A program made the position numbers and the translations under genes. The notes under the pieces are model-generated. The model saw only the letters and a program-made list of their open reading frames with translations. It searched no databases and was not told the DNA's origin. A DNA stretch of 64,000 bases from Pseudomonas sp. ANT_H4 (GTDB lineage Bacteria; Pseudomonadota; Gammaproteobacteria; Pseudomonadales; Pseudomonadaceae): contig NZ_VOBG01000009.1 of NCBI RefSeq assembly GCF_008369295.1, positions 62,001-126,000 on the forward strand, given 5' to 3'. How positions within the stretch are numbered: the first letter of the stretch is position 1; each line of letters opens with the position of its first letter. This document shows positions 49,208 to 61,500 of the stretch, piece by piece.

Positions 49208-49342
49208 CCGAAAAAGGCGCCTACCTCAGGCGCCTGAAACCATCCTCCAAACCAAAGGAGCCAAACAGGAGGACAGTGGAGCAATCAACTCTTCAATACA
49301 CAGCCTGGCTGGAAACCAAGGTCGTAGATGAGGAGAGTCGCC

Positions 49343-49612
49343 ATGCGTAACGCCATTACCTACACCGTCCTTGCTACCTTCATAGCCCTTGGAACTGTTG
49401 CCACGGGATTTGCCGAACAGGCCAAAGCCCCCGCCCAAAGCAGTGCCGAGACAAATAAGGGTGAGGACATGCACATGATGGACGGCAACCATATGCCGAT
49501 GATGGACATGCAGGAAATGTCCAAGATGATGAAAAACTGCAATACAATGATGGAGAACATGAACCAACACATTGGAATGGAGTCCCCGAAGGGCGATAGC
49601 AAGGCACAATAG
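49343..49612 (+). CDS. Met-rich periplasmic protein, probable metal binder
   Basis: 89 residues from ATG 49343 with GAGGAGAG seven bases upstream. A signal peptide (MRNAITYTVLATFIALGTVA) precedes a tail in which Met, His and Asp dominate (MHMMDGNHMPMMDMQEMSKM). Such proteins bind Cu(I)/Ag(I) in the periplasm. It is the intact counterpart of the broken gene at 27289. Confidence 0.7.
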   Translation: MRNAITYTVLATFIALGTVATGFAEQAKAPAQSSAETNKGEDMHMMDGNHMPMMDMQEMSKMMKNCNTMMENMNQHIGMESPKGDSKAQ

Positions 49613-49639
49613 CGATCTGGTTCACGTCGGCCGTCTCCG

Positions 49640-50409
49640 TCCCTCGCCGGTGTGCGCCCCGACACGGAGGCCGACCTTGCCGCTCCAGATATCGTTCTCA
49701 AAACTGCCGAGGAGCTGCTTCCCCTCATCGACGGCCTTGTAGTAATTCAAACCACCGACCAAGGCGACATCATCTGCAAGCGGGTAGCTCCAGGTAGTGC
49801 CGGTATAGTATTGGTTTCAGGCATCCTTGAGACAACTGGTGTAAAGGCTGAAGCCAAGGTTGTCGTTGGGTGTGTAATCACCGCCGACTATCCACGGAGA
49901 GCCGACTTCGCCTGCGTAGAAGGTTGCAAAATCATCCCGCATGCTGCTGGAGCTGGGTTGGCTCATCGCGTGCAGGCGTCCGCCCTGTAGCACCAAGCCC
50001 TCGACACTGGTGTTGTATGCGGTGACGCCGCGGAAGCTTTCCGGAAGCAGTCGCGAATCGCCGTACTGCACGACAGGCGTGACAGGGAAGACATCGCCTA
50101 CTTTGATTTCAGTGTCCAGGAAACGGGTCTTTACGGCGCCGCCGAGCTTGGAGTAATTGTCCTCGGCCTGGCCGAGCCCGACTCGAATCGGCCTATGACT
50201 CCGTGGGCCCATTCTTCCGAGTAGCCATTTCCTGTACTGCTGGACTGGCCTTTGCGAAAATCACGGTTGAAGTAGAAATTTCGATTGAGGATGCTCAGGC
50301 TGCTGCCTTCGATGAATCCCTCGCCTTTTTCCTCGGCGGCCATTGCAGCCTGCGCAGCGCTGATGCTCAAGACGATCTGAGAAAGTCCCAACAGGGCCTT
50401 GTTGTTCAT
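49640..50409 (-). pseudogene. OprD-family porin, frameshifted and truncated
   Basis: It begins [20 protein letters not shown] with a signal peptide, then [20 protein letters not shown] as in OprD porins. The frame breaks near 50190, where a segment of ~50 residues seems deleted. It resumes [34 protein letters not shown], breaks again near 49815, and continues WSYPLADDVALVGGLNYYKA before being lost near 49640. No C-terminal strands remain. Confidence 0.8.
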
Positions 50410-50568
50410 AAACGCTCTTGATGTTTTGGCAGATTTTTCATTGTGCGGTTGTGTATATGCCGAAGCGCGCCGGGCATAGCCGGGTGCGCTTCTTACATAC
50501 TTCCACATGCAAAATAACGTCAGGGTGACGTGAAAATTACTTTTCCGTCAGCAACACGTCAACAATGC

Positions 50569-50901
50569 TCAGTGCTGGCTCCTGCAGTCCGTTCCTGATA
50601 CGCGGTACTCCAGAATATGCAGGTTTCCGCTCGAATCCTCGTAGGTCATTTGCGCAGGCATCACATCGCAGTTGCCATTGGTCGACGTGACGTGAATGAC
50701 CTTGGCGATGTCGAGCTTCATGCCATAGCGGTAGTGAGTGACTTCTGGCGGGTTCTTGCCTTGGGCGCTAGCGTATTCGCGCATGGATTGCTCGTTGGCC
50801 TGGATCATCTTACCGTACAGGCGATCGGAACTGCCATCGGCCCATACGGTGGATGACAGCAGAGTCGCACTCACTATCAGCAGCAGTCTTAGGTGTTTCA
50901 T
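50569..50901 (-). CDS. DUF2790 secreted protein under a MerR-type promoter
   Basis: 110 residues from ATG 50901. A signal peptide (MKHLRLLLIVSATLLSSTVWA) precedes the DUF2790 pattern EVTHYRYGMKLDIAKVIHVT, CDVMPAQMTYEDSSG and LEYRVSGTDC. DUF2790 proteins are small, periplasmic and common in Pseudomonas, often copper-linked. Here the promoter is of mercury-operon type (next entry). The signal peptide and leader are nearly identical to those of the gene at 52805. Confidence 0.8.
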   Translation of the reverse strand: MKHLRLLLIVSATLLSSTVWADGSSDRLYGKMIQANEQSMREYASAQGKNPPEVTHYRYGMKLDIAKVIHVTSTNGNCDVMPAQMTYEDSSGNLHILEYRVSGTDCRSQH

Positions 50902-50939
50902 AACGGCGATCTCCTCTCGGGTTTTCGATCCACGATTCA

Positions 50940-50970
50940 ACTCTACCTCCGTAGTTAAGTACGGAATCAA
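50940..50970 (-). promoter_or_regulatory. MerR-type promoter of the DUF2790 gene
   Basis: Minus strand: TTGATT, 19-bp spacer with the dyad CCGTA-N6-TACGG, then TAGAGT. Same form as the mer promoter at 53629. Confidence 0.75.
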
Positions 50971-51067
50971 GGAGGGAGGAGATGAAGGTCCTGGTTTATG
51001 GCGCCGAGATAAGATGGTAGGGCTTAAGTACACTTTCGTCGGGTAACAGCAGCGCATTACTGCGCCA

Positions 51068-51112
51068 CCGCCCCCAAAGAACCGGGCATGAGAGTCGCGC
51101 CTCATCCGGCTC
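51068..51112 (-). pseudogene. Group II intron fragment
   Basis: Minus strand GAGCCGGATGAGG...CATGCCCGGTTCTTTGGGGG forms the short hairpin and CGGTTCTTnGGGGG block conserved next to reverse-transcriptase frames in bacterial group II introns. No reverse transcriptase remains. Confidence 0.45.
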
Positions 51113-51159
51113 AAGTCTTTCGTCAGCACCATGGTCTAGTACCGGGCAATCAATCCACG

Positions 51160-51500
51160 TCTATCGCAGCTCGACGTTGGGCAAAGTAAGACGACCACGC
51201 AGGATCACAGGGATTGGCCAAGTTACGTAGTGCCGTTTCTCGATCCGGCTTAGGTATGTGCGCCACGTAATCACGCTTGATCGTCTTCACGAAGCTCTCG
51301 GCCATGCCGTTGCTCTGCGGGCTGCGAACTGGGGGGTCACCGGCTGCAAGCCGATCTGTCGAGCAAACAGGCACGTCTGGTCGGCGGTGTACGCCGAGCC
51401 GTTATCGCTTAGCCATTGCACCGGCGTGGCGGGCAGTTGATCACCGAAGCGCCTCTCCACGCTTTCCAGCATCAAGTCGCGGATATCATCGCCGCTGTAC
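51160..51500 (-). pseudogene. IS3-family transposase fragments
   Basis: Minus-strand pieces in two frames: [20 protein letters not shown] (second catalytic Asp) and, after a frameshift, [20 protein letters not shown] with the last Glu. Only the C-terminal half is left. Confidence 0.8.
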
Positions 51501-51659
51501 CCGGTCGGGCTCGCGACCTAGCCGATGGCCTCGCGATCACAGCAGTCCAGGGCGAAGGTTACGCTCAATTTGGCTCCGTCCTCGCAGCGGAACTCAAAGC
51601 CGTCCGAGCACCAACGCGTATCGCTGGTTTGCACCGCAATACGGCCTTCGTGCCGACGC

Positions 51660-51960
51660 GGCACGCCGGGCTGTTTTCGTAGACAGATTCAGCAGCGGTT
51701 GCAGGTGCTCGCCGCACTGGATCACCCAGCGCGCCAGGGTTTGGCGGGGGATATCGACGCCGTGACGACCGAGGATTTTTTTGAAGCGGTGCAGCGGCAG
51801 ACCATCGACGTATTTGGTGATCAACAGCATCGCCAGGACGCTAGGACTGGCCATGCTCTTTTCGATCAGTTGAGCCGGTTTGTCGGCGGTGACCGGTGCG
51901 GCTTCACAGCCGCGGCAGCCGTAGACCTTGTCCGCTGGTTCCCTTCACAACCACTGGCCA
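51660..51960 (-). pseudogene. IS66-family transposase fragment
   Basis: The minus strand reads MASPSVLAMLLITKYVDGLP and HRFKKILGRHGVDIPRQTL, the signature of the large IS66 transposase. A preceding piece (VYGCRGCEAAPVTADKPAQL) is also typical. The frame is lost near 51660. Confidence 0.8.
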
Positions 51961-51972
51961 ACGCAGAGCGTT

Positions 51973-52231
51973 TTACCCATGCAGCGAAACGATTAGCGGA
52001 CAGGAAACGGTCCCGTGGCTCGCACAACAGTCGTGAACCAGTTGCACCAAAACAGACTCGATCCGTCGCAGATCCGCGAGCTTGCCACGCACATCCCCAA
52101 GCTTCTGCTCGGCGAGCACGCGCGCTTCATCACAGTGAGCGCCGTCATCGAGCCTCAACAGCCCGGCCACTTCTTCGAGGCTAAAGCCCAGCCGTTGCGC
52201 GGACTTTACGAATTTCACCCGGGCGACATCG
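51973..52231 (-). pseudogene. merR: Truncated merR, second copy
   Basis: Codons for [20 protein letters not shown] through the Cys-containing C-terminus ([15 protein letters not shown]) match the intact merR at 53183 with few changes. The DNA-binding N-terminus is replaced by the GGGG terminus of the miniature element at 52232. This is the relic of a second mer locus. Confidence 0.85.
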
Positions 52232-52492
52232 GGGGTTGGGGAGCAATGGAACTGAAAACCAACGTAAGCCGAATTAGAGTTCGTTTTACTCGTCAGCGAC
52301 TGCGAATTAACGAACTTTGATTCGTGAGAAAGGTTTATTGCACTGATTTTCGGGTGTTGGTGACCTTTCCTCGCGATAGCGGAAACGGTTTCATAAAACG
52401 GTCGTTTTTCGAAACTATCCAGACGTTGCAAGGGTTTGCGGGGCAGCGACTGAGCTTAAGTGCACTTTCTGTTCCGTTGCTCCCCCAACCCC
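52232..52492. mobile_element. Tn3-type miniature inverted-repeat element, 261 bp
   Basis: Left end GGGGTTGGGGAGCAATGGAA (38 bp, 52232-52269) and, as reverse complement, right end GGGGTTGGGGGAGCAACGGA (52454-52492). GGGG starts and ~38-bp length are those of Tn3-family ends, with no gene inside, as in TIME-type elements. It interrupts merR' on one side and a HigB-like gene on the other. Its flanking 5-mers do not match. Confidence 0.6.
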
Positions 52493-52609
52493 TATTTCCA
52501 GCAGCGAGGTGATGAATTCGTTTTGCTGTTGTGCGGCGGCGACAAAAGCAGCCAAAGCCGTGATATTGAAGCGGCTAAAAAACTCGCCAGCGAGTGGAGG
52601 TCAGAATGA
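52493..52609 (+). pseudogene. HigB/RelE-type toxin fragment (C-terminal)
   Basis: Reads YFQQRGDEFVLLLCGGDKSS then RDIEAAKKLASEWRSE and stop, the C-terminal end of HigB/Gp49-like toxins. The N-terminus is lost at the miniature element. The stop overlaps the next start (ATGA). Confidence 0.7.
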
Positions 52610-52710
52610 GCGAAAAAATTTACGACTACGACCCAGCAGCAGCCCTAGACGGCCCTGAAGCAATCGCCGTCTTCATGGCGGAGCCCTGCCATTTCCTCTC
52701 AGCGCCATAA
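52606..52710 (+). pseudogene. HigA-type antitoxin fragment (N-terminal)
   Basis: 34 codons: MSEKIYDYDPAAALDGPEAI then AVFMAE match the N-terminus of addiction-module antidotes. The helix-turn-helix is missing where the duplicated mer leader begins. Confidence 0.7.
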
Positions 52711-52735
52711 TCCAGGACCTTCATCTCCTCTCTCC

Positions 52736-52766
52736 TTGATTCCGTACTTAACTACGGAGGTAGAGT
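52736..52766 (+). promoter_or_regulatory. MerR-type promoter of the gene at 52805
   Basis: TTGATT, 19-bp spacer with CCGTA-N6-TACGG, TAGAGT. It is part of a ~155-bp inverted duplication with 50830-51005. Confidence 0.75.
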
Positions 52767-52804
52767 TGAATCGTGGATCGAAAACCCGAGAGGAGATCGC
52801 CGTT

Positions 52805-53020
52805 ATGAAACACCTAAGACTGCTGCTGGTAGTGGGTGCGACTCTGCTGTCATCCACCGTATGGGCCGAGGGCGGGAGCGACCGAGCGATTGAGCGAATT
52901 GCTGCACGCGAGAGGGCTGAAGCGACCCTGGTGGCGGAAACCGTCAAGGAGATTAAGCAACTGGGCCCCACGGCGGCAGGCCGTAGCGAAGCGCAGCCCG
53001 CCTGTCCGCCTGCAAAGTAG
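52805..53020 (+). CDS. Small secreted protein under a MerR-type promoter
   Basis: 71 residues. It shares the signal peptide of the DUF2790 protein at 50569 almost exactly but has a different mature part, Glu/Ala-rich and helical (SDRAIERIAARERAEATLVA) with one Cys near the end. Probably a diverged or recombined paralogue. Function unknown. Confidence 0.55.
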   Translation: MKHLRLLLVVGATLLSSTVWAEGGSDRAIERIAARERAEATLVAETVKEIKQLGPTAAGRSEAQPACPPAK

Positions 53021-53125
53021 AGCCTGTGCTACTCGACCAGATGCAACGTGAGCCCACTCTGCTGAGGCGCGAGGGCAAATAGCAATACCAAACTGTGCCC
53101 TTTGCAAGTGCTCCTTTGGCCATTC

Positions 53126-53153
53126 AGCGGCGCTCATTGAGCGCCGCTTTTTT
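53126..53153 (+). terminator. Terminator between the small gene and merR
   Basis: 10-bp perfect stem AGCGGCGCTC/GAGCGCCGCT, 3-base loop and T-run. Faces convergently towards merR and may serve as a bidirectional stop. Confidence 0.8.
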
Positions 53154-53182
53154 CTAAGCGCAAGCCGACCAACAGGGGCGCC

Positions 53183-53623
53183 TTACGCAACGGGAAATCC
53201 TCGGTTAACGCCCGAGTTGTCCCCATGCAGCGAAACGATCAGCGGACAGGAAACAGTCCCGTGGCTCGCACAACAGTCGTGAACCAGTTGCTCCAAAACT
53301 GACTCGATCCGTCGCAGATCCGCGAGCTTGCCACGCACATCCCCAAGCTTCTGCTCGGCGAGCACACGCGCTTCATCGCAGTGAGCACCGTCATCCAGCC
53401 TCAACAGCCCGGCCACTTCATCGAGGCTAAAGCCCAGCCGTTGCGCGGATTTAACGAATTTCACCCGGGCGACATCCGCCTCACCGTAACGGCGAATGCT
53501 GCCGTAGGGCTTGTCCGGTTCGGGTAACAGCGCCTTGCGTTGATAGAACCGGATGGTTTCCACGTTGACCCCGGCCGCCTTGGCGAAAGCGCCAATGGTC
53601 AGGCTTTCCAAATTGTTTTTCAT
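53183..53623 (-). CDS. merR: Mercury-responsive regulator MerR
   Basis: 146 residues. The winged-helix N-terminus ([20 protein letters not shown]) is followed by the three Hg(II)-binding Cys positions in [16 protein letters not shown] and TVSCPL. It represses, and with Hg(II) activates, the mer promoter in the 71-bp gap to merT. The start at 53623 is 6 bp from the -35 of that promoter. It is the likely regulator of the two extra MerR-type promoters as well. Confidence 0.96.
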
Positions 53624-53628
53624 ACCGC

Positions 53629-53659
53629 TTGATTCCGTACATGACTACGGGACTAACCT
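53629..53659 (+). promoter_or_regulatory. mer operon promoter/operator
   Basis: TTGATT, 19-bp spacer with the dyad CCGTACATGACTACGG, then TAACCT. The classical MerR-twisted layout. Confidence 0.9.
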
Positions 53660-53694
53660 TAAACCATCGATCAAATGCTCGAAAGGAGAAATGC

Positions 53695-54045
53695 ATGTCT
53701 GAACCATCAAACGGGCGCGCCCCTCTTGTCGCCGGGGGGCTTGCGGCGATTCTCGCCTCGGCTTGCTGTCTCGGGCCGCTGATTCTGATCGCACTGGGAT
53801 TCAGCGGGGCCTGGATCGGTAACCTGACCGTGCTGGAACCGTACCGCCCGCTCTTCATCGGCGCGGCACTGGTGGCGCTGTTCTTCGCCTACCGGCGCAT
53901 TTTCCGCCCCGCTCAAGCCTGCGCACCGGGCGAGGTCTGCGCCATCCCTCAGGTACGTACCTCCTACAAGCTGCTGTACTGGCTGGTGGCGGCCTTGGTG
54001 CTGGTCGCGCTCGGCTTCCCCTACATCCTTCCCTTGTTCTACTGA
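53695..54045 (+). CDS. merT: Mercuric ion transporter MerT
   Basis: 116 residues from ATG 53695 (AAAGGAG upstream). Three membrane spans; the Cys pair in span 1 (ASACCLGPLILIALG) and the cytoplasmic loop pair (CAPGEVCAIP) pass Hg(II) from MerP to MerA. First gene of the operon. Confidence 0.96.
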   Translation: MSEPSNGRAPLVAGGLAAILASACCLGPLILIALGFSGAWIGNLTVLEPYRPLFIGAALVALFFAYRRIFRPAQACAPGEVCAIPQVRTSYKLLYWLVAALVLVALGFPYILPLFY

Positions 54046-54058
54046 TCAGGAGTTCACC

Positions 54059-54337
54059 ATGAGAAAACTGCTCGCATCCTTAGCCCTCGCCAGCCTGGTC
54101 GCCACACCCGTCTGGGCGGCCACGCAGACCGTCACCCTGGCGGTGCCGGGCATGACCTGCGCCGCCTGCCCGATTACGGTGAAGACGGCGTTGACCAAGG
54201 TCGATGGCGTGACCAAGGCTGAGGTGAGTTTCGAGAACCGCGAGGCCATCGTCACCTTCGACGATACCAAGACCAATGCCCTGGCGCTGACTAAGGCGAC
54301 CGAGGACGCTGGCTATCCGTCCAGCGTCAAGCAATAG
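54059..54337 (+). CDS. merP: Periplasmic mercury-binding protein MerP
   Basis: 92 residues: signal peptide (MRKLLASLALASLVATPVWA) plus one HMA domain with GMTCAACPITVKTAL. It captures Hg(II) in the periplasm and hands it to MerT. Lies 13 bp after merT. Confidence 0.96.
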   Translation: MRKLLASLALASLVATPVWAATQTVTLAVPGMTCAACPITVKTALTKVDGVTKAEVSFENREAIVTFDDTKTNALALTKATEDAGYPSSVKQ

Positions 54338-54349
54338 GAGGGACTTCCG

Positions 54350-56496
<2,147 letters not shown>

Positions 56497-56516
56497 TGAG
56501 AGAGGGAGGTTGAAAC

Positions 56517-56936
56517 ATGAGCAACACGGCAGACGATCTCGGTAGGTGCGACAGCCTACGCAAGACATGGCAGTTGGTCAGCTTCTGGGGCCTGCCTGCC
56601 GTCGTGGCGACGATAGCGATTGTTCTGTCTAATCGACGCCCCGCGTTGTTCCTGGCAGCAGGCGCCGCGCTGGCCGTGATGGGCGGCGCCTGCCTGGTCA
56701 ACGCCACGCGTTGTCGCCGCCTTCACTGCTACATAACGGGGCCTCACTTCCTGTTGCTCGCAGTTGGTGCGCTATTGGCTTATGTGTTTGACCAAAACGG
56801 CGAGCATCTCTCCAGGTTGTGGCTGCTACTGGCTCTGGGAGCTGCACCGTTGCTCATCTGGCTACCTGAGCGCCTAGCCGGAAGGAAATATCTGAGCGCC
56901 CCAGTTTGCGGTGAAGGTCGGGAGTGTCGGCGATGA
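56517..56936 (+). CDS. Hypothetical mer-operon membrane protein
   Basis: 139 residues, with three to four hydrophobic spans and a conserved-looking RCRRLHCYITGPHFLLLAVG loop with Cys and His. Proteins of this kind occur between merA and merD in some mer operons (called OrfY in places). The role is unknown; a transport aid is plausible. GAGAGGGAGG precedes ATG 56517 closely, and its stop overlaps merD. Confidence 0.7.
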   Translation: MSNTADDLGRCDSLRKTWQLVSFWGLPAVVATIAIVLSNRRPALFLAAGAALAVMGGACLVNATRCRRLHCYITGPHFLLLAVGALLAYVFDQNGEHLSRLWLLLALGAAPLLIWLPERLAGRKYLSAPVCGEGRECRR

Positions 56937-57295
56937 ATGCCTACTCCATATCCAGATTGGCCGAGGACGCGGGCGTCAGTGTCCATATAGTCCGAGATTA
57001 TATGCTGCGCGGCTTGCTGCACCCCGCGCGGCGCACGGAAAGCGGTTACGGCATTTTCGATGAGCGGTCCCTGGCGCGGCTGTGCTTCGTACGTGCCGCC
57101 TTTGAGTCCGGTATCGGGCTCGACGAATTGGCGCGGCTCTGTCGAGCGCTCGATGCAGACGATAGTACCGATGTGATCGGGTGTATCGACCGCTTGCTTG
57201 GGCAAATCGCGACCCGGCTGGCAGCTTTAGACGCAGTGAAAACGGAGTTGGCCGGGCTGACTCATCGTGCCATCGAAGGTCACACCCATGCGTAA
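56933..57295 (+). CDS. merD: MerR-like coregulator MerD
   Basis: 120 residues from ATG 56933, overlapping the previous stop (ATGA). A MerR-type helix-turn-helix (SISRLAEDAGVSVHIVRDYM) without the Hg-binding Cys set is diagnostic of MerD, which displaces MerR from the operator to switch the operon off. Confidence 0.94.
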   Translation: MNAYSISRLAEDAGVSVHIVRDYMLRGLLHPARRTESGYGIFDERSLARLCFVRAAFESGIGLDELARLCRALDADDSTDVIGCIDRLLGQIATRLAALDAVKTELAGLTHRAIEGHTHA

Positions 57296-57524
57296 TACCA
57301 ACCAATCCGAATCAATCAAGATGCCCCGCTGGCACGCCTACACGTGGGGTGTGCTCGCCGCGCTCACTTGCCCCTGCCATCTGCCGGTGCTGGCATTACT
57401 GCTCTCGGGGACTGCGGCCGGGGCCTTCGTCAGCGAGCATTGGAGCCTCGCGACGCTCGTGCTGACGGTTCTCTTCGTCCTCTTCCTGAGAGCGGCTCTA
57501 CGGGCCTTTCGGAAGCGGGCGTGA
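57288..57524 (+). CDS. merE: Mercury transport protein MerE
   Basis: 78 residues from ATG 57288, overlapping merD by 8 bp. Two membrane spans; the Cys pair in [17 protein letters not shown] is the family mark. A broad mercury importer at the operon's end. Confidence 0.94.
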
Positions 57525-57685
57525 CCCGCTCGGAGCACGGCGCGGTCTCCGCTGCCGAGTTGCGGCAGGCTTGGGAGCGTTGGGAATTGTTGCTGCACTG
57601 CCAGCCGCAGGTCGATCTGCGCGCAGGTTCGATCGCAGGTGTGGAAGAGTTACTAGGTTTTCTTGGACGATGGAGAAACCCCATC
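57521..57685 (+). pseudogene. EAL-domain (Urf2) N-terminal fragment fused in frame to the next gene
   Basis: From GTG 57521 (overlap with merE) the frame reads [20 protein letters not shown] and [20 protein letters not shown], the start of the Urf2-type EAL phosphodiesterases that follow merE in many transposons. The EAL core is deleted and the frame runs on into the DUF3330 gene. Confidence 0.7.
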
Positions 57686-57898
57686 ATGAACGCAAACGAC
57701 ACCCCCACTATCAGTTGCTGCGAATGTTGCAAGGAAATTTCCCTTGACGCCGCACTGACGCCGGAAGGTACCGAGTACGTCGTGCACTTCTGTGGCCTTG
57801 AATGCTATCAGCGCTTCATATCGCGCGCGGATAAGAGAGCGGCATCCGAGCCTGATCACCCCTGCACACCAGAGGTCAGTACCCGTCACGACGACTAA
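57686..57898 (+). CDS. DUF3330 protein
   Basis: 70 residues from ATG 57686 with GGAG upstream. [20 protein letters not shown] and [12 protein letters not shown] contain four to five Cys arranged like a small metal-binding (TRASH/YHS-like) domain. Common at the distal end of mer operons; a metal-sensing or storage role is inferred. Confidence 0.75.
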
Positions 57899-58191
57899 TC
57901 TTTGCCTCTGGAAAGTGGCTCTGGTTTTTTTTAGAAAGCGTGAGTCCATTGAGATTTAATGCAAGTCCGCTCGTGGCTAATGTAAGCCCGAAGGCTTCGT
58001 CAGTAGTTTTATCTAGGCCGATGCCCGGGAGGATGGCAGCGTGCCTACAGGGCGTCAAAACCGGCTACCCAGAGTCAAATTCACCCCACAGTACAGCGAT
58101 GCTATAGAGTTACTCGTCAGTCCTGCAGCATCAGTTTTACTCTGCACCTCCATTGTATTCAGTCTGCCGGCAGCCCATTTGCACGAATAGT
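57899..58191. other. Intergenic gap, mer to tnpC
   Basis: 293 bp between convergent units. No gene or clear terminator is seen. Confidence 0.45.
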
Positions 58192-58554
58192 CTAGTCCTG
58201 ATAGTCAGGAGCAAGCGCTGCCAAAGGAGCAACGTGTTTAGAACCCGCCTGCAAGCATGAACATAAAGCAGAAATATCCTCTTGAAGGGCCATCGCCTGC
58301 GCCCAAATACTGTCGACATCACTGGTAGCCACAGTGAGGGGGAAACCTTCCAGTACCGTCATGGCCATGCCATGCAGGCGTAGGAAGTCTTCTCGAATGC
58401 TGCCGACCCCTCCGATTTCAGCAAGGCAGGCATCCAGCCGGTCGACCAAGTTGAGCAACTGAGCGGTGTCGTAGCTTGCACGCAGAGAGTCGAGTACCTT
58501 GGTATCGACGTCCCCATAAGGTGTCACGCGGAACGAAGCTGGCGGGATATGCAT
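58192..58554 (-). CDS. tnpC: Transposition regulator TnpC
   Basis: 120 residues, helical, overlapping the tnpA stop by 1 bp of an ATGA. Tn4652 carries a 120-residue TnpC at the same place, where it lowers transposase level post-transcriptionally. I rely on size and position; sequence motifs are few (LVDRLDACLAEIGGVGSIRE). Confidence 0.8.
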   Translation of the reverse strand: MHIPPASFRVTPYGDVDTKVLDSLRASYDTAQLLNLVDRLDACLAEIGGVGSIREDFLRLHGMAMTVLEGFPLTVATSDVDSIWAQAMALQEDISALCSCLQAGSKHVAPLAALAPDYQD

Positions 58555-61500
58555 CAGTTCGTCACCTCAACGTTGCTGTCAGACATCTGTTTCGCACGCA
58601 TTGATCCCGCAGCCTGCTGGAAAATGGAATCCTTGATCCAGGGTTCCGGTGGGCGTTTGAGTTTCAGGTTGAACTCCCCAAAACGTTTGACATTGCTGGT
58701 TAGGTAGGGGCTGAGAAACGATACGTCGTCGTCAGTGAACTGCCAGCCATCACGGGCGAGCTTCTGCAGGATGCGCATCATGTCCACGGTGTTCTGCAGG
58801 ATCACCGACGAGGCCACCATGTCGTTGTAGCGCAGGCGTTTCTGTTGCTCGTCCGGATCGTTTTCGGCGATCACGTCACCGCCAAAGGACAGCCACTTAG
58901 AGAAGCCGTTGTAGGACTCGATCTTATTGGTGTTGGCGGTGACTTCCTGGCGCAACTCGCGGCTGCCGATCCAGTTGAGTAGGAAGATCGTCCGGATCAC
59001 GCTGCCCAGCGCTTGCGCGGCATGATAGAGCTTGTTGCGCCGACTGTAGGAGCCAAGTTTGCGCAGCAGCATAGGTGAGGAAATCTTGCCGGCCTGGATT
59101 GACAACGCGACCTGCATCAGATCCTGCCAGTGGGTTTCGATCAGGTGCCAGTCGGCGGTGTCGGTGAACAGACGGTTGATGTGTTTATACGAAACGCCGC
59201 GATCTGGCCGGCACATCACCAGGTCGCGCCAGTTGCGGATACGCGGCATCAGATTGATGCCCAGCAGATGAGTGAAGGCGAACACCGTGGCCGACTGGCC
59301 CTGGGTGTCAGAGTACACCGTATCGGGTTCGACGCTGAGGTCGACCTTGAGCAACCCCTCAATCACATAGATTGCCTCCCAGATACCAGGCGGGATGAAG
59401 TGCTGGAACACCGCGATGTAGTTATTGGCCACGTGTCGGTACGCCACGGCCCCCATCTTGCGATAGCGGAAGTGGTAGCCGGCCAGCAGATTGTCGTCAT
59501 AGAAGTCGAACTGCGTACCGTCCGCGGCCACCGCCTTGCCATCGCCCCAGAGCTTGGGCAGGTCAAGTTGCAGATAGAGTTCCACCAGCTCGCGGTTAGC
59601 CTTGTCTAACTTCTCAAGCGAGAGATGGCGGCGATTCGTATAGGACAGCATGTGCGGCGTGACATTACCGGCCAGATGCCGTGCGGCCTGGTTGGGGCCA
59701 AGGTTGCAGCCCATGGCGAAGATCGTCATCAGGTAGCGCTCGGCCGGTTCTTTGAGCTTTGGCTCGTTGCCGGACATCGGCCCGAAATGCCGAGTGAACT
59801 GAATCCAATGCTCAATGTTGGCCATGATGTCGAGCACGTGCCTGGCCGGCATGCGCTGCATAAGCGCCGTCTGTAGCGAGATGGCCGAAGGCGGGATGTC
59901 CCGCGCTATCACTCGGCGTAGCACCGGTTCGCCGGCTTCATTGATCGATACGTCACCTCGGCAAGAAGGGAATTTTTCATCCAGATGCTGCGCGGTTTCC
60001 TCCAGCTGAATCTTGAGGGAGGCGACAAACTCCTTCGCCGTGCCAGGCAGCCCCACCTTTTCGCAGTAGGCCGGTAGACGATGGAAACATTCTTCCCAGG
60101 GCAGCAACTGCTTACGGTAGTCGGCGAAAGATTCCGACCCCAGCACGCACATATCACCCGAGCGCAGCTCACTGGCCAGGTAAGAGAACACGCAGACTTC
60201 CAGATAGCGCCGGTTGGTAGGTGGCCCTTCACTGGCAGGACGACGCACGACCTTAACCCAGCGCTCCGACGCAAACGACAAGTCGACATGCTCGTCGATC
60301 CACTCGCGGTGTAGATTTTCGCTGTCCTGGATGAGCTGAAGCGCCTGGATAAGTGAGCGATCCTGAGTCGTGGGTTCCAGTTGAAGAAGGTGGCTCAGAC
60401 GGAACAACAGCGAGCGATGGGACTTGAAGTGCTTCCAGATCAGCGGCAGGTAGTTGTTACCGCCCGTAGCCTGGACTTCGGCGCAAGTCTCGCGCAACCG
60501 ATCCAGGTTGCCATCGGGAGAGAGGAATTCCCGGATCAGACTGCCAGCCTCCTGGTCATCCGGTTCCTGAACAAGAATCTGCACCACGCCATCCAGGGTG
60601 GCCGCCAGTTGCTCCAGCTTCTGGCGTTGCCGCGCCTGGATTTGCTCCAACTCCTCCTTGGCGCGTTTGTGGATCGTCGAAATCCGTCGGATGAACATCT
60701 CGGCCAGGTGATCCCGAGTTCGCACCCGCATCCGATAGATCAAGGCCAGCATCAGTGTGTAGCGTTTCGGCAGCGAGCAGTCCTTCAGCTCGGCGACGTC
60801 CGACGCGGCGGCTTGGGTGGCGAAGTGGCGGATCTTAGCATCGACGACCCCCTCAAGAATGGCATCCAGATCTCCGAAGCTCTCTAACCACGCCAGGTGG
60901 TCGATCAACACCTCCAGGTGCTTGCGGGAAGGCTTCTTGGGTGCCTGCTTGAGTGCGTTGAAGTCACTCTGCCGACGCCCGAAATCCGTGTCGAGCAGCT
61001 CCTTTAGCTTGTAGATCACCTCGATTGGCGCTCGGAGCACGATCAGGTTGAAGGTAACTTCCTGAGCACTCGCCAAAGCGGTTTCTGCGATGTTGTTGAG
61101 CGTCGAATAAGCCGGAAGCTCATAGCCACGCTGAATCAGCTCATCAAGCATGGCATTAATGAGATCGACTCGCTGCTCAAGCACTACAGCGCAGTCACGT
61201 GCGATTTCCTCAGTGATCGCTAGCCCGTCGCTGCTATAGAAGGGTGTAACCTGCAGGTACTGCCGAACCGCCGCTTGGTGTCGGTAAAGGGTGCGGGGGT
61301 TGCTGTAGCGCGGAGCTATTCGTGCGCCGTAGCGAAGGCATTGTCGGACATGACTGATGAGCTCCTGAGGAAGCTCCTCGAACGGAACAAAATAGTGTAG
61401 CTGCTGAAACACCTTTAGTTGGATTGCCAGCCCAATCGATAGCGCTGGACTCTTAGCGGTGTTATTGACCCATTCGATCTCTGAATCAGACAGGGAATAG

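Follow-up and report, generated by a model that had tools for sequence, protein, structure and literature searches.

MerR-type promoters upstream of two small genes that encode exported proteins next to a mer operon of Pseudomonas sp. ANT_H4

The mercury-resistance (mer) genes are among the best-studied metal-resistance systems. In a 64,000-nt stretch of Pseudomonas sp. ANT_H4 (contig NZ_VOBG01000009.1, positions 62,001 to 126,000; hereafter, the window), we found that promoters of the MerR type precede not only merT but also two small genes outside the mer operon, one encoding a DUF2790 protein and the other a protein of the PtrA N-terminal family. The PtrA-like gene and its promoter form a genuine MerR-type unit that is conserved, stands apart from the mer operon and is located in a known kind of transposon. 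We propose, with a probability of about 0.72, that the small genes belong to mer transposons as accessory units and would be controlled in trans by MerR and Hg(II); from their promoter sequences, regulation of both the PtrA-like and the DUF2790 unit by Hg(II) is likely. The unit travels on mer transposons of clinical and environmental Pseudomonas plasmids, it adds a testable candidate to the mer system, and it provides the poorly understood PtrA/DUF2790 proteins with a defined candidate metal signal.

MerR-type promoters in the window and the genus

A scan of the window for the CCGTA-N6-TACGG dyad returned three matches without mismatches, and these were the only ones; when up to 2 mismatches were allowed, 23 sites were observed and 16.2 were expected. 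All three exact dyads are located within TTGATT-N19-TANNNT, which, as read from the sequence, corresponds to a 19-bp spacer between the -35 and -10 elements (Table 1). An earlier reading of this DNA (the sequence-only reading) had described three such dyads with 19-bp spacers, two of them outside the mer operon, and they are indeed present and exact at all three sites. It had placed the DUF2790 site at 50940; the site is real, but this position is the -10 end of a promoter on the minus strand.

The bare dyad was rejected as evidence because its frequency in the 6.13-Mb genome matches that of a reversed control (8 places and 9 places, respectively); of the 8 places, 4 are mer-type by their flanking sequence, one of them in front of merT in a second mer operon on contig 11. 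The dyad preceded by TTGANN was found at 4 sites in the same genome versus 0 for the control, and a survey of 398 genomes of the genus yielded 78 sites in 45 genomes versus 4 reversed-control sites. The gene downstream of these 78 sites is merT in 56 cases, the PtrA-like gene in 11 and this DUF2790 gene in 4, and the remaining 7 sites lie elsewhere; with the window included, the PtrA-like sites span 11 genomes and the DUF2790 sites 4. The 78 sites comprise the three of the window and 75 that were fetched (55 merT, 10 PtrA-like, 3 DUF2790 and 7 with none, classed by the position of the downstream gene). Among the fetched sites, TANNNT at N19 is present in 13/13 small-gene sites, 41/55 merT sites and 0/7 unclassed sites.

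Within the window, the promoters of the two small genes are located in a 203-nt inverted repeat with arms that are 93% complementary and extend through the signal-peptide part of each gene. Because these promoters are one sequence in two copies, they are not independent evidence; thus, the three MerR-type promoters of the sequence-only reading have the architecture it described but represent two kinds of site rather than three independent ones. We infer that the presence of one promoter and signal-peptide segment in both the DUF2790 gene and the PtrA-like gene is probably due to duplication. The same reading had called the gene behind 52736 a paralogue of the DUF2790 gene, which agrees with the common promoter, signal peptide and PtrA-type N-terminus of the two, but their C-terminal parts differ. 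Specifically, the 110-aa protein matches Pfam PF10976 over the full domain (E 1.8e-27, 95.5 bits, gathering cut-off 27), has a relative in the PDB (4f98_A, E 4.6e-08), and matches the PtrA N-terminal family NF041599 over residues 1-45 (E 5.6e-16, 58.2 bits). The 71-aa protein also matches NF041599 (E 2.6e-13, 49.7 bits; the model spans 46 positions, signal peptide included, and has a curated cut-off of 31 bits), and a Pfam search with E values up to 1 gave no match for it, DUF2790 included. Its predicted structure is a poor model, consisting of a single low-confidence helix (pLDDT 60.9, pTM 0.27). Based on their signal peptides, both products should be periplasmic. Overall, the interpretation as MerR control retains the promoter architecture, the adjoining gene for an Hg(II)-type MerR and the conservation of the PtrA-like site in six variants, but loses the simple paralogue label and the independence of the sites.

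Conservation and origin of the PtrA-like unit

Since the two small-gene promoters of the window are copies of each other, the occurrence of the PtrA-like gene in other elements constitutes the stronger evidence. We compared six sequence variants of this gene: that of the window, L010, L014, L011, L019 (Ottowia thiooxydans) and L090. All six have an exact dyad at a distance of 60 or 63 nt upstream of the start codon ATG; L011 has another dyad core and L019 a TTGACT -35 element, and the palindrome is intact in both. In the alignment of the six, the promoter has 27 invariant columns out of 32, compared with 22 of 61 in the upstream part and 21 of 38 in the leader. Furthermore, every variant retains an intact open reading frame, a ribosome-binding site and the C-terminal Cys, and the mer-linked variants have an ACPPAK-like tail. 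A stem-loop followed by a T run was seen by eye 3' of the gene in all six, with small changes.

The PtrA-like promoter and leader of the window match those of merT at 45 of 62 positions. Outside the -35 element and the dyad, 25 of 40 positions match, a value that was never reached in 100000 permutations (mean 10.6). Alignment of each of four further variants to its own merT leader gave 19, 20, 26 and 23 matches at 45 positions outside the -35 element and the dyad (permutation was applied to the window only, and L090 was left out). The simplest reading of these sequences is that the PtrA-like promoter and leader are a diverged duplicate of the mer operator/promoter (mer o/p).

Relatives of these genes appear to have a different regulatory site. 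PtrA of P. aeruginosa is reported to be a periplasmic protein of copper tolerance under the control of CopR, with CzcR also acting on the operon (PMC7922089, PMC11195947), and the CopR consensus of this species is given as CTGACAn5GTAAT (PMC11195947). We scanned 250 bp upstream of 90 PtrA-family relatives, which comprised 30 loci returned by a search and 60 rows picked by hand from the hit list of that search and which were top-scoring rather than random. Using this consensus, a CopR-type box with up to 2 mismatches was found in 82/90 (exact in 59), and the reversed control was found in 1/90; by distinct protein the count is 56/64, and by gene type it is 22/22 for DUF2790-type genes and 60/68 for short genes. 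The MerR dyad was found upstream of 0/90 relatives with up to 1 mismatch and 1/90 with up to 2. Conversely, the MerR dyad precedes 7/7 mer-linked genes and a CopR box with up to 2 mismatches precedes 0/7, and by this measure none of the seven is PtrA proper. Three plasmid-borne PtrA-family genes adjoin two-component metal regulators. From these sequences, a metal-stress gene seems to have been rewired by mer transposons, its mercury-switch site standing where most of the relatives examined carry a copper-type site.

In the annotated plasmid records examined, the PtrA-like gene is convergent to merR, with the exception of pPPUT-Tik1-1, in which a Tn3-family transposase gene interrupts it after about 35 residues. 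On pKF715B, a 38-bp end is followed by the PtrA-like gene and then merR, and on the far side of tnpA and a recombinase gene there is an inverted copy of this end (1 mismatch); because ends lie on both sides, this PtrA-like gene is inside a Tn3-family element. PMC10488154 lists Tn5046 on pCN1276 and deltaTn5041D together with Tn5046 on p12969-2. On both of these host plasmids the PtrA-like gene adjoins merR, as it does here, although the operons tabulated for these transposons in that paper are merRTPCADE and merRTPABGD, from which the PtrA-like gene is absent. The gene order suggests the assignment of each PtrA-like copy to a named transposon. A MerR above the family cut-off is encoded on 6/6 plasmid records checked; among those six, one DUF2790 unit is adjoined by a merR fragment only.

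Two further sets of DUF2790 genes were considered and set aside. A DUF2790 gene beside a second mer operon in genome G005 (locus L109) was rejected as the ancestral layout, as its match to the window breaks off at 50397. The L109 sequence beyond this break presumably resembles a Tn3-family end. Diverged DUF2790 genes near merR (L101, L119 and L138) were rejected as independent cases, the closest match to the dyad within 400 nt upstream having 3 mismatches; L101 and L119 encode one and the same stretch.

Proposed regulation and competing explanations

These observations provide the basis for a model in which a PtrA-type gene for an exported protein is located at the mer end of the transposon, convergent to merR. 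The gene has its own MerR operator with an over-long 19-bp spacer, a ribosome-binding site and a signal peptide, and a terminator-like stem-loop follows it. Duplication of the mer o/p may have supplied the promoter and leader, displacing a copper-type promoter. MerR acts by holding RNA polymerase at a long spacer, and Hg(II) realigns the -35 and -10 elements. We predict that, in the absence of metal, MerR bound to the dyad would keep the small-gene promoter off with polymerase held at the over-long spacer, and that upon exposure to Hg(II) it would realign the two elements as at merT. The products, predicted to be periplasmic, might then act as a buffer or shield against Hg(II) alongside MerP, perhaps via the conserved C-terminal Cys, although binding of mercury by the PtrA-like and DUF2790 proteins is a conjecture from their sequences.

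The most serious competing explanation accepts that the sites are regulated by MerR and holds that the PtrA-like and DUF2790 genes are passengers behind a duplicated mer promoter, expressed as a by-product and with no role in mercury resistance. It departs from the explanation we prefer solely in what the products do, and we give it somewhat less than even odds. Retention of the promoter block beyond that of its flanks in the six variants argues against it, as do the features kept intact in 6/6 (reading frame, ribosome-binding site, stem-loop and Cys) and a ratio of nonsynonymous to synonymous substitution (dN/dS) below 1 in 13/15 pairs of the mature part. Several results weigh in the other direction. 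The remaining 2/15 mature pairs have a dN/dS above 1, which favors the passenger explanation; all of these ratios were computed over 38-51 codons from few and short sequences. In addition, 9/14 genome loci hold a truncated PtrA-like remnant by a mer operon, lacking the dyad and the signal peptide (in 9/9, the closest match to the dyad within 400 nt upstream has 3 mismatches), and 23/60 of the plasmid matches listed align from residue 27 only. Such remnants beside mer operons indicate that the unit is lost while mer stays, and the gene therefore looks dispensable for mer; most mer sites surveyed are without such a gene (55 fetched merT sites versus 10 PtrA-like sites). The counts themselves also call for caution. 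A single dyad sequence is common to all small-gene sites of the genus survey, the 11 PtrA-like ones among them, so they are largely copies of a few elements, and the 82/90 relatives with a CopR-type box are not an independent count because the 90 top-scoring, partly hand-picked relatives hold 64 distinct proteins. Finally, a common ribosome-binding site and constraint on the -10 element inflate the leader score, and the test cannot separate such constraint from descent.

It is unlikely that transposon rearrangement, with duplicated ends around merR fragments and a miniature element, has left the two additional dyads as inert relics. The region is indeed a mosaic, with an inverted repeat, a truncated merR, a two-ended 262-bp element and an IS66 transposase fragment, but the promoter-gene unit is intact in L010, L011 and L014, each of which has a single such end in the scanned stretch. 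Very unlikely is control by another MerR-family regulator or a response to another metal (copper or zinc) retained from the PtrA family, as the reported action of CopR and CzcR on PtrA in P. aeruginosa might suggest, given that the dyad is that of the adjoining merT promoter, that 68/75 fetched sites precede merT or a PtrA-like/DUF2790 gene, with TANNNT at N19 missing from the remaining 7, and that the CopR box is absent upstream of the mer-linked genes.

A broader idea, which we put forward as rather doubtful, is that the PtrA/DUF2790 family could be a general periplasmic shield against soft metals that changes metal regulons by promoter exchange, mostly under copper two-component systems and under MerR and Hg(II) on mer transposons, in which case the PtrA-like protein would be an unrecognised component of mercury resistance.

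Compared with the known mer o/p and its Hg(II)-responsive MerR (PDB 5crl), the window is alike in the CCGTA-N6-TACGG dyad, the 19-bp spacer and Cys82/117/126, and differs in that two single-gene units besides the operon also bear the site. The small genes share with the PtrA (PA2808) family NF041599 the signal peptide, the N-terminal segment and the character of a small exported protein; in contrast, a MerR dyad replaces the CopR-type box, and the ACPPAK-like Cys tail occurs in the six mer-linked variants. The DUF2790 protein matches the full PF10976 domain (PDB 4f98_A), with a MerR-type promoter in place of the CopR-type box of the sampled DUF2790-type genes. In P. alloputida, DUF2790 genes are reported to respond to lanthanides. 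In the open-access papers searched, no title or abstract opening connected PtrA or DUF2790 genes to mer; the 2011 PtrA paper and the 1997/2002 Tn5041 papers are outside this scope and may mention the reading frame. The search of these open-access papers found none that pairs DUF2790 with mercury or names 'co-regulatory protein PtrA' or 'PtrA N-terminal'.

Features of the region and other mer loci

Table 1. Coordinates of the promoters, genes and repeats discussed (positions in the window)
Feature	Position	Strand	Basis or detail
DUF2790-gene promoter, MerR-type	50940..50970	-	TTGATT-N19-TAGAGT, exact dyad 50949-50964
PtrA-like-gene promoter, MerR-type	52736..52766	+	TTGATT-N19-TAGAGT, exact dyad 52742-52757; kept in six variants
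merT operator/promoter (mer o/p)	53629..53659	+	TTGATT-N19-TAACCT, exact dyad 53635-53650
DUF2790 gene, 110 aa, signal peptide, PtrA-type N-terminus and DUF2790 domain (residues 52-107)	50569..50901	-	Pfam PF10976, NCBIfam NF041599
PtrA-like gene, 71 aa, signal peptide, one Cys near C-terminus	52805..53020	+	NCBIfam NF041599
Terminator-like stem-loop after PtrA-like gene, 10-pair stem then TTTTT	53126..53153	+	terminator scan
merR, Hg(II)-type, Cys82/Cys117/Cys126	53183..53623	-	TIGR02051; 5crl_A E 3e-62
merT-merP-merC-merA-(membrane ORF 56517-56936)-merD-merE	53695..57524	+	merT, merC, merD, merE by Pfam/NCBIfam; merP, merA by near-identity to annotated mer operon
Inverted repeat, left arm: promoter and signal-peptide part of DUF2790 gene	50822..51024		repeat search
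Inverted repeat, right arm: promoter and signal-peptide part of PtrA-like gene	52682..52884		repeat search
Second merR copy, C-terminal part only	51970..52230	-	95% identical to 53216-53476; matches NF010315 from position 49 on
262-bp element between two facing transposon-end copies	52231..52492		8 and 1 mismatches to 38-bp end of L010

The MerR encoded beside the PtrA-like gene scores 164.9 bits against TIGR02051, over the cut-off of 150.85, and 239.1 bits against the narrower NF010315, under the cut-off of 261. It matches PDB 5crl, which we take to be the Tn501 MerR protein, over residues 1-134. An annotated mer operon covers 71% of 49300-58600 at 99.8% identity, and Pseudomonas plasmids match at 98-100% identity. 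For the stem-loop after the PtrA-like gene, the terminator scan alone is weak proof, as 5 terminator-like sites were found in the 3.8-kb region and 3.9 were expected from shuffling.

Between the small genes, the 262-bp element starts exactly where the merR fragment stops (52230). Its paired ends and its length, which is that given for the kappa-gamma miniature element in PMC7765201, suggest that it is a copy of that element (PMC7765201, PMC4133298). An IS66-family transposase fragment is also located between the small genes, at 51594-51854 (Pfam PF03050, E 3e-17; it covers positions 3-65 of the 284 in the profile).

The same genome has a second mer operon (L143; contig 11, 111500-117500) with its own merR and the dyad CCGTACCTGACTACGG before merT; no PtrA-like gene was found in this 6-kb stretch by tblastn at E 1e-4. 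In the operon of the window, the reading frame between merA and merD encodes a predicted protein of 139 aa for which Pfam and NCBIfam gave no family match at a useful E-value; in related mer operons, the gene at this position is marked hypothetical. On pWTJH17 (L011:9901-12089), a gene for a sigma-70 family factor lies between merA and merD, and a gene for a patatin-like phospholipase follows merE.

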